Origin: Bacteroidetes bacterium MED-G17
GTDB lineage: Bacteria > Bacteroidota > Bacteroidia > NS11-12g > UBA9320
Assembly (NCBI GenBank): GCA_002457675.1
Contig: NTKK01000010.1
Coordinates: 1-47,762 of the forward strand
Direction of reading: 5' to 3'
Length of the DNA: 47,762 bases
Part shown: piece by piece, positions 108 to 39,354 of the stretch
How the letters are laid out: the number at the start of each line of letters is the position of its first letter
How positions within the stretch are numbered: position 1 is the first letter of the stretch
Position numbers and translations under genes: made by a program
The notes under the pieces: generated by a model
The model's database searches: none
What the model was told of the DNA's origin: nothing
What the model saw: the letters and a program-made list of their open reading frames with translations, nothing else

Positions 108-869
108 TCAAAAAATTAAATTCAAACCCGTTTTGATTCTTGTGTCATTAAGCAATAAGCTACTTAAATATGGCGTAGTATGGTATCTAGTTTTGCCTTT
201 TAGGCTAAAACTAAAATACTCTGAAAATTTAAAAATGAGTTCTGGGTCAAATAAAATTCTTAAATCTCCAGTATTTAGAGCATTAAGTTGAACGTATGCG
301 CTTTGAGCGATCAATATTTTTTCAGAAATCTTAAATGAACTAAATACATTTAAGTTGACTCGCCAATTATTTGCCGTAAAAACCTCATCATTACTTTCAT
401 AATCCTCATACTCATAAAAACTTCCAACGGCTATATCAAGATATCCTTTGTCACCTTTGTACAAATTGTGCCTATATCCAGTCCCTAAAAGTGCGCGTAG
501 TTTCATATTTAGTGGCATAGAGTTGCCCCTTTGAGTAAAGAAAAATATTGAATTTAGTGAATCTTTGAAAAGATGAAGATTGTTGCGTGCATGAATTACT
601 AAATCAGATTTGAGTCTTCGCCTATCTTGAGATCTATAATCATATCCAGCTATAAACCTTAATTCATTTTTATTTATCGAATGATGATAAGATAATTTTG
701 TCTCTGAGGTAAGGGTAGCAAAATTTCCAATATTTAACTCACCTTTATCTTGGCTCAAAAAAAAGTGTCTATTTTTATCCGTTATTGATTTGATATTTTC
801 AACGTTTAAAATTTGACCTGTTGAATGGGCAACGAAAAAAAAAGAAAGAATTAAGGCAACAGATTTCAA
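108..869 (-). CDS. DUF481-like outer-membrane beta-barrel protein
   Basis: This 253-residue protein has a signal peptide (about residues 1-18, cleaved near S-T-G-Q). Alternating beta strands follow, and the chain ends in a terminal Phe, as is usual for outer-membrane barrels. The segment around residues 125-157 (G-T-G-Y-R-H then E-Y-E-D-Y-E) resembles DUF481 porin-like proteins, whose function is largely unknown. No ATG is available: the only plausible start is TTG at 869, one nt after the TAA of the upstream ion-channel gene, because an in-frame TAG lies just upstream. This implies translational coupling with the channel. The barrel class is fairly sure; the DUF481 assignment is from memory of the family pattern and less sure. 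Confidence 0.65.
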   Translation of the reverse strand: MKSVALILSFFFVAHSTGQILNVENIKSITDKNRHFFLSQDKGELNIGNFATLTSETKLSYHHSINKNELRFIAGYDYRSQDRRRLKSDLVIHARNNLHLFKDSLNSIFFFTQRGNSMPLNMKLRALLGTGYRHNLYKGDKGYLDIAVGSFYEYEDYESNDEVFTANNWRVNLNVFSSFKISEKILIAQSAYVQLNALNTGDLRILFDPELIFKFSEYFSFSLKGKTRYHTTPYLSSLLLNDTRIKTGLNLIF

Positions 870-870
870 T

Positions 871-2079
871 TTAAATGACTAATGATAAGGCAGAATAATT
901 TAATATCACATAAGCTAAAGCTAATAATAAATAAATCGACAATGACCAATATTTTTCACTCTTAGTTATTACTCCATCAGCTTTAGTAATAATTGAAATT
1001 AAGACAGTCACTATGATAATGATAATAATGGTAATTAATGCAAATCCATTGATAAATTCAGCAAGCGTAATGATATCTGTGGTTGGTAATTTTGAAGATA
1101 AAATAATACTTGAACCAGCAGCAGTGAACAATGATCCTACCACAAATCTAGAAGGGTCTTTGGCCAAAGTTCCTAAAAAAGCAACTATTACCGCCACATA
1201 GACAATTAAAAATAATTTGAAGACCCCTTCAATGCCCCCTCTTTTTATTGGGACAGACATCCTAATTTGTGAAAAATCAACCTTAAAGCCACTTGGTAAA
1301 TTTGGATTGCCTCTAGCTGATTTATATGCATGAGGCTTTTCTATAATTTTAGAAGTTTTTCTAAGAATTTTGTAGCCTGTTATAGAAACTCGAGAACTAA
1401 TTTTCGTATCATTTGTATCTGGAACTAACAATACTTTTTGCCTATTTAACCAAGCGTGTTCAATAGAAACTAAAAGATCATGTGCATCAATTGGGAATAG
1501 TGTTACATCAAAAAATTGAGTTATTTGGGCTTTAACTTTAAATTGAACATAAGACAACTCGTTGGGGGCTAATGTGATATTTCTAGAAACTTCATTAAAA
1601 GACTCAATTTCGCCGTTAATTACAGATATTGGCAATGAGCTTAAGTTAAGCTCATTCATAATTGACTTTAACTTAAGTTCATTTAGGGTATTTAATTCAT
1701 ACTGTTTTGCCAATAATGGTCTTATACCTAAAAAGTCAACCTCCGACTGATTCCAAGTAAACCATAAATAAAATTCCCCTGTCCATTGTGAGTTTTTAAT
1801 TGCAAGAGACTCAATTCTTTCGAAATAAATACCTGTTTTGACCTTAGGTATATTTTTTGGTTTTTCATAAGAAACAGCCGCAGTTTTGCCTGGATCAGGC
1901 GAATTCTCATCCATTATCATTTTCTTATGCAGGCTTATCTCATTGTGTTCTTTTTCTATGAAACTATAGAAATTTCGAATAAAAATAAAAGATATAACCG
2001 CTACAAGTATAAATACTATGGCTAGAAGATATTCTGATTTTAAAGATTTGATTTTGCAAAATAAAAAGAAATATTTCAT
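871..2079 (-). CDS. Prokaryotic pentameric ligand-gated ion channel homologue (Pro-loop receptor)
   Basis: This 402-residue protein has the Cys-loop/GLIC superfamily layout. An N-terminal membrane anchor (about 17-36) replaces a cleavable signal peptide. A linker is followed by a beta-rich extracellular domain (about 78-280) with G-E-F-Y-L-W-F-T-W at 101-109. The Pro-loop core F-P-I-D is at 195-198, and there are no loop cysteines. Four C-terminal helices follow: M1 about 285-304, M2 about 311-329, M3 about 339-364, M4 about 378-401. The M2-M3 turn K-L-P-T-T-D (330-335) matches the L-P-K-T/V turn of GLIC and GlyR. A P-S-R triplet (309-311) just before M2 recalls the P-A-R of anion channels, but spacing to the L-P turn is about two residues short, so selectivity cannot be read. 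The protein should form a pentameric inner-membrane channel; ligand unknown. It sits 1 nt upstream of the barrel gene. Confidence 0.8.
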   Translation of the reverse strand: MKYFFLFCKIKSLKSEYLLAIVFILVAVISFIFIRNFYSFIEKEHNEISLHKKMIMDENSPDPGKTAAVSYEKPKNIPKVKTGIYFERIESLAIKNSQWTGEFYLWFTWNQSEVDFLGIRPLLAKQYELNTLNELKLKSIMNELNLSSLPISVINGEIESFNEVSRNITLAPNELSYVQFKVKAQITQFFDVTLFPIDAHDLLVSIEHAWLNRQKVLLVPDTNDTKISSRVSITGYKILRKTSKIIEKPHAYKSARGNPNLPSGFKVDFSQIRMSVPIKRGGIEGVFKLFLIVYVAVIVAFLGTLAKDPSRFVVGSLFTAAGSSIILSSKLPTTDIITLAEFINGFALITIIIIIIVTVLISIITKADGVITKSEKYWSLSIYLLLALAYVILNYSALSLVI

Positions 2080-36654: not shown

Positions 36655-38075
36655 ATATTCTGCTATCTGATATTCGATTTTGGATTCTAGTTGCTTTTTT
36701 ACTAAGACTCTACGGGATAACATTTTCACCCCTTGAGGTAAACCACAATTGGCGTCAAACTACGGTAAATATGGTGGCGCGCAACTTTTTTGAAATTTCA
36801 AATAATATTTTTTTACCGCGAATTGATTTCGCGGGTGACCTAACTGGAATAACGGGAATGGAATTCCCATTTTTCAACTATTTAATTTACCTATCTTCTT
36901 TAATTTTTGGTTTTGACCATTGGTATGGTCGTCTTATCAACCTTATGATTAGCTCTTTAGGCATTTGGTATTTTTACAAGTTAATTAAGCAGTTGTGGAA
37001 TACAAAGCTGGCCTTTTCAGCCAGTTTTATTTTGTTATTTTCACACTGGTTTAAATACAGCAGAAAAATTATGCCTGACACCTTTGCTGTTTCTTTGGTA
37101 ATGATAGGATTGTATTTCGCATTTTGCTATTTACAGAGAAAAAATCAAAATATTTTGTATTTGATAGGGGCTACATTACTGATGCCCATTGGCGCACTCG
37201 CCAAGTTGCCGGCAGGCTATGCTTATGCATTTTTTATTATTCCATTGATAAACAAGCAGTTTGAATGGAAGAAAAAGGCATACTTATTTGGTGGTTTAAC
37301 ACTTGGCTTACTTAGCGTCTTATTTTGGTATTTTTATTGGTCACCCTATCTCACTACCCATTACCAATTTTATCACTTTTTTCAGGGGAAGTCGTTACAA
37401 TCAGGTTTTTTTGACATATTGTACGAACCAAAGCTTTTTTTAAAAAATTTTTATGAATACCCTTTGCATTTCGTTGGTTTTGGCCTATTTGCATTGGGCA
37501 TATTTTCTGCAATTAGAGCCGATCAAAAAGATGTTTTAACCATCCTGTCTTTGGGAATGGTCGCATATATCCCTGTAATACTCAAAGGTGGCTGGACATT
37601 TATTCATCATAGTTATTATATGGTTCCAGTTACACCTTTAATGGCTTTGATTGCAGGTATTGGCCTAAATTCTATTCCCAATAGATATATTTTCACGCTA
37701 TTTTGCTGTGCATATTTGGTAGACAATGGACTAAGTCAGATGGATGACTTTAAGGTTAGAGAAAATTACTTCTCTTTTGAAAACCTAGAAGAAGATTTAA
37801 ATTCCTTGGGTGTTTCAGCTACGGATTTAATCGTTATAAATTCACACCCAAATCCAACACCTTTTTATTTCAGTAATAGAAAAGGTTGGCTCCTGAGCAA
37901 TGATCAAATTGTGAACAGTCAGACGCTTTTTGAGATTACCAAGGGAAAAGCAAAATATTTGGTAGTGACCAAAGAGTGCTTCGGAAGCAATATCAGCACA
38001 ACAACAAAACCTATCTATTCAAGGGATACTTACGATATTTACAATCTATCTGAATTCTATCCGCCAAAAAAGTAA
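36636..38075 (+). CDS. Glycosyltransferase family 39-like integral membrane protein
   Basis: This 479-residue polytopic protein has about ten to twelve helices. The first extracytoplasmic loop contains E-V-N-H-N-W-R-Q-T-T-V-N-M-V-A-R-N-F (about 33-50) and later P-R-I-D-F-A-G-D. This matches the N-W-R-Q/D type of GT-C enzymes annotated as family 39. These enzymes use polyprenyl-phosphate sugars to modify lipids, glycans or proteins on the periplasmic side; the acceptor cannot be told. A small C-terminal soluble part follows. The gene overlaps the DUF2911 gene by 19 nt at the start. Its last 19 nt overlap the end of the convergent PAS-UbiA gene. Confidence 0.75.
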   Translation: MEKSRINILLSDIRFWILVAFLLRLYGITFSPLEVNHNWRQTTVNMVARNFFEISNNIFLPRIDFAGDLTGITGMEFPFFNYLIYLSSLIFGFDHWYGRLINLMISSLGIWYFYKLIKQLWNTKLAFSASFILLFSHWFKYSRKIMPDTFAVSLVMIGLYFAFCYLQRKNQNILYLIGATLLMPIGALAKLPAGYAYAFFIIPLINKQFEWKKKAYLFGGLTLGLLSVLFWYFYWSPYLTTHYQFYHFFQGKSLQSGFFDILYEPKLFLKNFYEYPLHFVGFGLFALGIFSAIRADQKDVLTILSLGMVAYIPVILKGGWTFIHHSYYMVPVTPLMALIAGIGLNSIPNRYIFTLFCCAYLVDNGLSQMDDFKVRENYFSFENLEEDLNSLGVSATDLIVINSHPNPTPFYFSNRKGWLLSNDQIVNSQTLFEITKGKAKYLVVTKECFGSNISTTTKPIYSRDTYDIYNLSEFYPPKK

Positions 38076-39337
38076 ATGCTTGCCGCCATAGCTAAACCGG
38101 TTAATGCACTTAATGCAATAGTATTGATATTGGATTTGACAAGTGTACGACTCGCAAAATTTTTCTTTATATCAGTAACCAATTTTAAACCAAAAAGAAG
38201 GGAAAATATCGAGACACCGAGAAAAACCATGTTTCCATTTATGCTTGAGATATAAAAATATGCGTAAATATTGGCCAAAAAGCTGAGCAGTAAAATTATA
38301 AAGTAAATACCAATAGATTTCTTTTTTCCATAGGTCACAACTAGGTGGTTTTTGCCAGTGGTGGCATCACTTTTGGCATCTGGGAATTCATTAATTAACA
38401 ATATGTTGGCTGTTAAAAACCCAGGTGCTAGACCAATCATAAAGGCTGCTAGACTTAGTTCTTGGGTTAGTACATAATAAACGCCCAAAGTGACTAAGGG
38501 ACCAAAAGCCAAGGATATGGCAAGTTCGCCCAAGCCTCTTCGAGCAACTAATCGTAATGGAGGGGCAGTATAAAAATAACCTAAAAACAAACCTGCAAGA
38601 CCAATTGCTAATGCTTTTACGCCTGTTACGTAGGCCAGGTATGCGCCTATAGACGCTGCTGCCGCAACCAACAACCATCCCAATCTTTTGGTTCCTTCAA
38701 GAGTTATCAGCCCTAATTCGATAGCTCTACTGCCTCCAGAAAATTGCAAAAAATACTCATTGTTTGCTTCGTCAGTTCCATCTTTTACATCAAAATAATC
38801 GTTAAGCACATTGCTACCCAAATGAAGGAAAACAACACCAAAAATTGAAAGTATAAAGTGAAATGAATTAAAACTTCCATCGGATAAATTTAAAGCTGCT
38901 AGAGCGCCGGCAATCAAAGCTGGCATGATAACCGCAGAAATGAAAGGAAGCCTAGTAATGGCCAAGCCTTTGATTAATTTGGTTGAAAATTTGATAGGTA
39001 CGTGTACATCTTTTTCTAGAATCTCTGTAACACCGCAATAACCCGTTTGTCCATTCTCTTTGCCATTTGCAAAAGTTGGCGTAATACGTATATTGGCATT
39101 TATTTTGTGACCATCCTTGTGAACAAATTGAGTTTCAGTAAGATACTCTCCTTTTGTACTTGCTTCTTTAAGCCACATGGCCACATTCTGCAAAACAATT
39201 TCACCAGGAGAGAACATTGAAACTCTTTTTTTACCTACTACTTCTTCGGCTTTGTATCCAAAAATTTTTTCCGCTCCATCACTAAATGTTTCGATGATGC
39301 CTTCCATATCGCAGGTAATTACACTTTTTGAATTCAT
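38057..39337 (-). CDS. PAS domain fused to UbiA-family prenyltransferase (MenA-like)
   Basis: This protein has 426 residues from ATG 39337; an upstream TTG at 39349 lies in the promoter and is unlikely. Residues 1-112 form a PAS sensor domain (M-E-G-I-I-E-T-F-S-D-G-A-E-K-I-F-G-Y near 11-28, V-H-K-D-G-H-K-I-N-A near 72-81). Residues about 120-426 are a UbiA prenyltransferase with eight or nine helices. The first Asp motif is N-D-Y-F-D-V-K-D-G-T-D-E at 179-190, followed by Y-T-A-P-P-L-R-L near 256-263 and the second Asp motif N-E-F-P-D-A-K-S-D near 316-324. Both Mg-diphosphate sites are intact. A MenA-like menaquinone role or another lipid-quinone step is inferred. No men genes are adjacent. 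Confidence 0.85.
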   Translation of the reverse strand: MNSKSVITCDMEGIIETFSDGAEKIFGYKAEEVVGKKRVSMFSPGEIVLQNVAMWLKEASTKGEYLTETQFVHKDGHKINANIRITPTFANGKENGQTGYCGVTEILEKDVHVPIKFSTKLIKGLAITRLPFISAVIMPALIAGALAALNLSDGSFNSFHFILSIFGVVFLHLGSNVLNDYFDVKDGTDEANNEYFLQFSGGSRAIELGLITLEGTKRLGWLLVAAAASIGAYLAYVTGVKALAIGLAGLFLGYFYTAPPLRLVARRGLGELAISLAFGPLVTLGVYYVLTQELSLAAFMIGLAPGFLTANILLINEFPDAKSDATTGKNHLVVTYGKKKSIGIYFIILLLSFLANIYAYFYISSINGNMVFLGVSIFSLLFGLKLVTDIKKNFASRTLVKSNINTIALSALTGLAMAASIYFFGG

Positions 39338-39346
39338 AATGTAGAA

Positions 39347-39354
39347 CAAAAGTA
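39347..39354 (-). promoter_or_regulatory. -7-like element (TACTTTTG) before the PAS-UbiA gene
   Basis: A perfect TAnnTTTG on the minus strand ends 9 nt before the preferred ATG. A TTTG lies 14 nt further upstream, closer than the usual spacing. Confidence 0.4.

Follow-up and report, generated by a model that had tools for sequence, protein, structure and literature searches.

Prokaryotic pentameric ligand-gated ion channels (pLGICs) serve as structural models for the human neurotransmitter receptors, while little is known of which ligands they bind in nature, or of what the additions do that some carry before the ligand-binding domain. The bacterial pLGICs known to Tasneem et al. in 2004 were all described with a signal peptide, and some of them were fusions to PBP-I or MCP-N/Cache domains (PMC549065). 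The only pLGIC bearing an N-terminal domain (NTD) that has been characterised structurally is DeCLIC (PMC9897478, PMC12664993). The best solved relative of the protein examined here is GLIC, the proton-gated channel of Gloeobacter (PDB ID: 3eam and others).

The stretch of DNA that we analysed, called the window in what follows, is 47,762 nucleotides long and comes from Bacteroidetes bacterium MED-G17. At 871..2079 it contains a gene of 402 codons running from an ATG start to a TAA stop, for which the original prediction had proposed a pLGIC homologue with an N-terminal membrane anchor; the interval it gave is exactly this open reading frame, to which we add that the gene lies on the minus strand, as do all the features of the protein located below. 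The sequence and fold tests that we ran all place the window protein among the true members of the pLGIC superfamily. The main points of interest are what the N-terminal segment is, and how the inner mouth of the pore is built.

Membership of the pLGIC superfamily

Searched on its own, the window protein has no Pfam match even at E = 10 and none in NCBIfam or the PDB; profiles do match, so the link to pLGICs is visible only with profiles. In a profile made from 18 anchored homologues, positions 72-369 out of 375 match GLIC (E = 5.3e-7), a 35-sequence profile of the wider family scores about 1e-21 against wild-type GLIC and, at best, 1.6e-23 against a GLIC-GlyR chimera, and hhalign against GLIC gives 95.1% with E = 3e-8. 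Several of the distant relatives pass the Pfam Neur_chan_LBD cut-off of 26 bits, with scores of 36.3 for locus L002, 30.0 for L006, and 26.9 for L010.

The motifs named in the original prediction are all present in the translation and in the order listed, namely the N-terminal hydrophobic stretch (residues 17-34, 18 residues and uncharged), WTGEFYLW (residues 99-106), the Pro-loop FPID (1486..1497, residues 195-198), and KLPTTD at the M2-M3 turn (residues 330-335). That they are not there by chance follows from the 17 relative loci, from the 67 of 402 residues that are invariant across the 18 homologues (the window protein and 17 others), and from profile and fold searches that return pLGICs.

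Most of the positions in Table 1 of Jaiteh et al. 2016 (PMC4795631) are found. The [F/Y]PxD signature is FPID at beta6-beta7, with P196 and D198 invariant in the 18 as well as in the 35 sequences. The pre-M1 Arg, which occurs in 94% of pLGICs and pairs with the Pro-loop Asp (PMC4795631), is R280, aligned by hhalign to GLIC R192 and replaced by Lys in part of the anchored family. The beta9 aromatic (W/F/Y) is Y236 and the M2-M3 proline, present in 88% of pLGICs (PMC4795631), is P332, both invariant in the 18. The exception is the M1 proline, found in 77% of pLGICs and missing from the other 23% (PMC4795631), which in our alignments is absent from the window protein, the anchored family, and the signal-peptide relatives. 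The extracellular domain contains no Cys, and the two cysteines that bracket the Pro-loop in the animal-type Cys-loop are not there.

The AlphaFold model of the window protein is of moderate confidence (pLDDT 64, pTM 0.50), and that of the ortholog L043 has a pLDDT of 76 and a pTM of 0.68; each shows an anchor helix, a beta-sandwich, and four further helices, which in the window protein are C-terminal. From profile, model, and hhalign, the extracellular (here periplasmic) beta-sandwich through to pre-M1 is placed at residues 80-280 (1240..1842). The model puts M1 at residues 283-304 (1168..1233), M3 at 339-366 (982..1065), and M4 at 373-401 (877..963) with the C-terminus predicted to be periplasmic, while M2, placed by both AlphaFold and hhalign, occupies residues 309-330 (1090..1155). 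Foldseek against the PDB has best scores of E = 1.4e-14 for the window model and 2.5e-16 for the L043 model at a probability of 1.00, and among the matches listed all are pLGICs, including structures of GLIC, GABA-A, glycine, and GluCl receptors and DeCLIC, with 14-19% identity to GLIC in the fold alignments. Structure prediction and profile comparison with GLIC, which are among the checks that the original prediction had proposed, thus returned neither another fold nor a blank profile search, and its assignment to this superfamily stands.

Relatives and distribution

In other genomes, 17 loci encode close relatives of the window protein. Identity is 44-48% for 16 of these and 32% for the remaining one, L044, which comes from a bin labelled as a proteobacterium. 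Searches of whole genomes from the class and order added about 25 relatives that are more distant (20-30% identity). A tree was computed from the columns that start at beta1, with the N-terminus left out and GLIC among the sequences; in it the 18 anchored proteins that were included (the window protein, 15 close relatives, L044, and L110) group together with support 100/99. L110 has the anchor and lacks the MDxxxPDxGxT motif described below. The earlier remark that bacterial members are few holds for the anchored branch, which at close similarity is found in 2 of 395 genomes of the class, but not for pLGICs in Bacteroidota generally, which are not very rare (27 of the 395 class genomes and 22 of 296 from the phylum). 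One locus, L050 (G364:C36), has a tandem pair of pLGIC genes, in a genome with four paralogues.

The inner pore mouth

The motif of the inner pore mouth is DPSR (1147..1158, residues 308-311), at the start of M2. Counted back from the M2-M3 proline at 23', the window M2 reads K-2', D-1', P0', S1', R2', G6', F9', and G13', and hhalign places R311 opposite GLIC T226, which is 2'; this register was set by hhalign and by hand, as the automatic pattern misread it. D-1' together with R2' is also found in 16 Bacteroidota close relatives and in L110. The other relatives were read by the automatic pattern, which misread L007 and L020 and did not read five divergent sequences, and all 27 readable ones have R0', 24 of them with D/E at -2'. 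These 27 include L044, the one member of the clade from outside Bacteroidota, which has R0' and not R2'. In pLGIC structures, 0' normally faces away from the pore and 2' lines it. On these alignments, then, the basic ring of the window clade has moved by two positions, from an away-facing to a pore-lining place, and the helix register that had been called two residues short is a real and clade-specific feature.

The P-S-R triplet before M2 had been taken to recall anion channels. The triplet is indeed present and resembles the P-A-R of GlyR and GABA-A, and five Arg at 2' would favour anions, but it is weak evidence for that selectivity: 79% of all pLGICs, whatever their selectivity, have R/K at 0' (PMC4795631), so that P-S-R does not identify an anion channel. 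Moreover, by the M2-M3 proline and by hhalign the triplet sits at 0', 1', and 2', off the -2', -1', and 0' positions of P-A-R, and the relatives mostly carry D/E at -2', as does GLIC. The Asp at -1' occupies the cation-filter position of the animal channels. We do not accept anion selectivity from P-S-R alone, and put an anion-selective channel at somewhat below even odds; this is a sub-question of the explanation that we prefer, and is compatible with it.

The probable N-terminal anchor

The protein starts with 14 residues of net charge +4 (2038..2079), followed by a hydrophobic segment at residues 15-36 (1972..2037) that includes the 18-residue uncharged stretch and no A-x-A site, so by the positive-inside rule the N-terminus should be cytoplasmic. 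AlphaFold predicts one unbroken helix of 41-42 residues, at 15-55 in the window protein and 7-48 in L043, with residues 37-55 (1915..1971) as a putative periplasmic continuation, constant in length in the Bacteroidota homologues. The conserved linker motif MDxxxPDxGxT is next, at residues 56-66 (1882..1914). From the end of the hydrophobic helix near residue 36 to beta1 at V80 there are about 43 residues without a Pfam domain, and hence no soluble sensor domain of the NTD, PBP, or Cache kind before the ligand-binding domain.

Length is kept in this region while sequence drifts. Residues 15-66 show no deletion in any of the 17 homologues, and only L044 has insertions there, two of one residue each. 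Mean identity to the 16 close relatives is 20% over residues 15-36 and 12% over 37-55, similar to the lipid-facing M4 at 19%, and is 74% over the MDxxxPDxGxT motif. The uncharged stretch runs to 18-25 residues in the anchored family versus mostly 8-17 in the signal-peptide relatives, where the hydrophobic core as a rule gives way to A-x-A and then to a short stretch leading to beta1. Because of this contrast and the predicted continuous helix, the most likely reading of the N-terminus is that of an anchor which is not cleaved, in line with the original prediction and its linker of about 40 residues.

The alternative is an ordinary pLGIC of the GLIC/ELIC type, in which an atypical signal peptide would be cleaved, so that the subunit would have four helices and a long tail at its N-terminus. 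It has the 2004 survey behind it, and also the small residues that a few homologues have close to where the hydrophobic stretch ends and that might form a cleavage site (VYA in L043, GIA in L039, and GNA in L044), but we consider it unlikely, as the window sequence has an 18-residue uncharged stretch and no A-x-A, the helix is predicted to be continuous in both the window protein and its ortholog, and helix length is conserved along with a motif after it. Neither the sequence nor the structure prediction looks like a GLIC/ELIC-type subunit that begins after a cleaved signal peptide. An uncleaved anchor is feasible in its geometry, by arithmetic and not from a structure: 41 helical residues measure about 61 Å, of which about 30 Å would be in the membrane and about 28 Å above it, and the 24 residues of the linker would cover the remaining way up to the extracellular domain's apex.

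Loop C and the putative ligand site

The most conserved segment in the family is the loop C region between beta9 and beta10 (1300..1347, residues 245-260), with the sequence IEKPHAYKSARGNP. Its mean identity reaches 88% with the close relatives and 75% with L044; the figures for residues 80-235 of the extracellular domain are 45% and 31%. In the profile alignment and by hhalign, loop C is longer than that of GLIC. Its near-invariance points to one ligand type for the clade, and the search for a ligand thereby becomes practicable, since a single agonist should act on many orthologs. The Lys, His, and Arg in the loop weakly suggest that the ligand is anionic or polar, and S228-S229-R230, which are invariant and lie around beta8-beta9, may make up the rest of the site.

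Genomic setting and gene neighbours

The host genome is 1.67 Mb and 99% complete. The gene lies among chromosomal genes that, from reading the open reading frames, we take to be aconitase, rpoN, asnS, folA, nadC, and pnp, and the DHFR (folA) among them was confirmed. Two viral proteins in BFVD, A0A5J6VL22 and A0A7S9SUV3, one of them labelled Megaviridae, have a pLGIC-like predicted fold. A viral origin of the gene is rejected, as viral contigs yielded no relative and the BFVD resemblance is at fold level only. Elsewhere in the window, at 38057-39349 on the minus strand, is a 430-aa protein in which a PAS domain at the N-terminus is fused to a UbiA prenyltransferase, an uncommon-looking combination of sensor and enzyme.

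One base pair downstream of the pLGIC gene, at 108..869 on the minus strand, is a gene for a DUF481 outer-membrane barrel-like protein, the only copy in the host genome and a possible operon partner, although the link is not conserved. Both genes are AT-richer than the measured neighbours (GC 0.307 and GC3 0.24 for the pLGIC gene), and perhaps were acquired jointly as 108-2079. DUF481 orthologs occur in genomes G019, G022, and G025, where no pLGIC was found, and share neither synteny nor flanks with the window locus, so we do not claim a functional pair.

Other genes accompany other members. In two sub-clades of the anchored family the pLGIC gene has a divergently transcribed DUF2490 barrel gene beside it (11 cluster members, with L005 and L037 apparently one contig). 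In 8 loci (L030, L033, L034, L036, L040, L042, L043, and L045) a protein of about 250 aa with a single transmembrane segment and no Pfam family is encoded directly upstream, adjoining or overlapping the pLGIC start, which suggests co-transcription. Both genes are missing beside the pLGIC gene in L029, L031, L032, L039, L041, the window, and the distant relatives. With no conserved neighbour, we reject reading a function from the neighbours, and no pathway is proposed.

Proposed mechanism

The explanation that we prefer, with a probability of roughly 0.75, is that the gene product assembles as a homopentamer into a ligand-gated channel of the inner membrane, of the Cys-less Pro-loop kind, with an uncleaved anchor, a loop C for a ligand shared by the clade, and a D-1'/R2' mouth. 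The N-terminus would lie in the cytoplasm, and the anchor helix would span the membrane and continue for some 28 Å into the periplasm, from where the MDxxxPDxGxT linker would climb to the apex of the extracellular domain at which beta1 starts. The beta-sandwich, M1-M4, and a periplasmic C-terminus would follow, for five membrane helices per subunit. A five-helix subunit unlike GLIC and ELIC had been expected from the outset, and the predicted anchor helix with four C-terminal helices, together with the contrast to signal-peptide relatives, supports it. A small periplasmic ligand, which we infer from loop C to be common to the clade, would bind at the subunit interfaces and open the M2 pore, in which F9' would form the hydrophobic ring, and rings of D-1' and R2' would make up the inner mouth in place of the D/E-2' and R0' of the relatives.

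A receptor or scaffold of pLGIC fold that signals by conformational change and does not conduct, its pore blocked by the R2' ring and altered mouth, would suit the Arg at a pore-lining position in 18 of 18 Bacteroidota members and the missing M1 kink proline, but is very improbable: among the helices M2 is conserved most strongly, at a mean identity of 67% to the 16 others, which speaks in favour of a working pore; Gly is kept at 6' and 13'; and the M1 proline is also absent from signal-peptide relatives with R0'.

A more far-reaching version of the channel reading, which we offer tentatively and think less probable than not, is a distinct class of five-helix pLGIC in which the helix of fixed length tethers the apex of the extracellular domain and takes a share in gating, the Arg moved from 0' to 2' and the acidic ring at -1' rewrite the filter, and one small periplasmic ligand acts through the invariant loop C. 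A built-in tether would allow one to see whether the extracellular domain, when held at its top, twists differently as it opens the channel, and the moved Arg ring, with close relatives keeping the usual layout, is a natural experiment on charge position in M2 and selectivity.

Comparison with known systems

We found no description of an anchored clade with neither a sensor domain nor the usual Arg position in the literature searched, which was restricted to open-licence papers, and the clade is apparently a small, undescribed branch. GLIC shares with the window protein the lack of Cys, the FPxD Pro-loop, the pre-M1 Arg, the M2-M3 Pro, and the whole fold of the extracellular and transmembrane domains; it differs in having a signal peptide, four helices, E-2', T2', a short loop C, and the M1 proline. 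The Bacteroidota pLGICs with signal peptides (such as L002, L006, and L010), at about 20-26% identity, have like the window family FPxD, Tyr and Gly in loop C, and VGxLF in M2, and no M1 proline. They differ by their cleavable signal peptide, the absence of anchor and MDxxxPDxGxT, other gene neighbours, and a pore with R0' and usually D/E-2'.

Additions before the extracellular domain are known from DeCLIC and other NTD-bearing prokaryotic pLGICs (PMC9897478, PMC12664993), but that of DeCLIC is a pair of soluble jelly-roll lobes, whereas that of the window protein is predicted to be a membrane helix and a short linker. The PBP-I- and MCP-N/Cache-fused pLGICs (PMC549065) carry a large soluble sensor domain, which the window family does not. 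Two such proteins came up in our searches, both with a membrane-helix-like stretch at the start as in the window protein. One, a 729-aa homologue at L004:7-2196 (G020, of the same family as the window genome), has an N-terminal membrane helix and, by a weak Pfam match, a periplasmic-binding-protein-like domain before the ligand-binding domain; the other, of 722 aa at L092:286-2454 (G503, of the same phylum), has a Cache-like domain, also by a weak Pfam match, and hydrophobic helices that immediately precede the ligand-binding domain, so a tethered ligand-binding domain is not wholly without precedent. Set beside these systems, the anchored R2' clade is a new variant within the known pLGIC superfamily.
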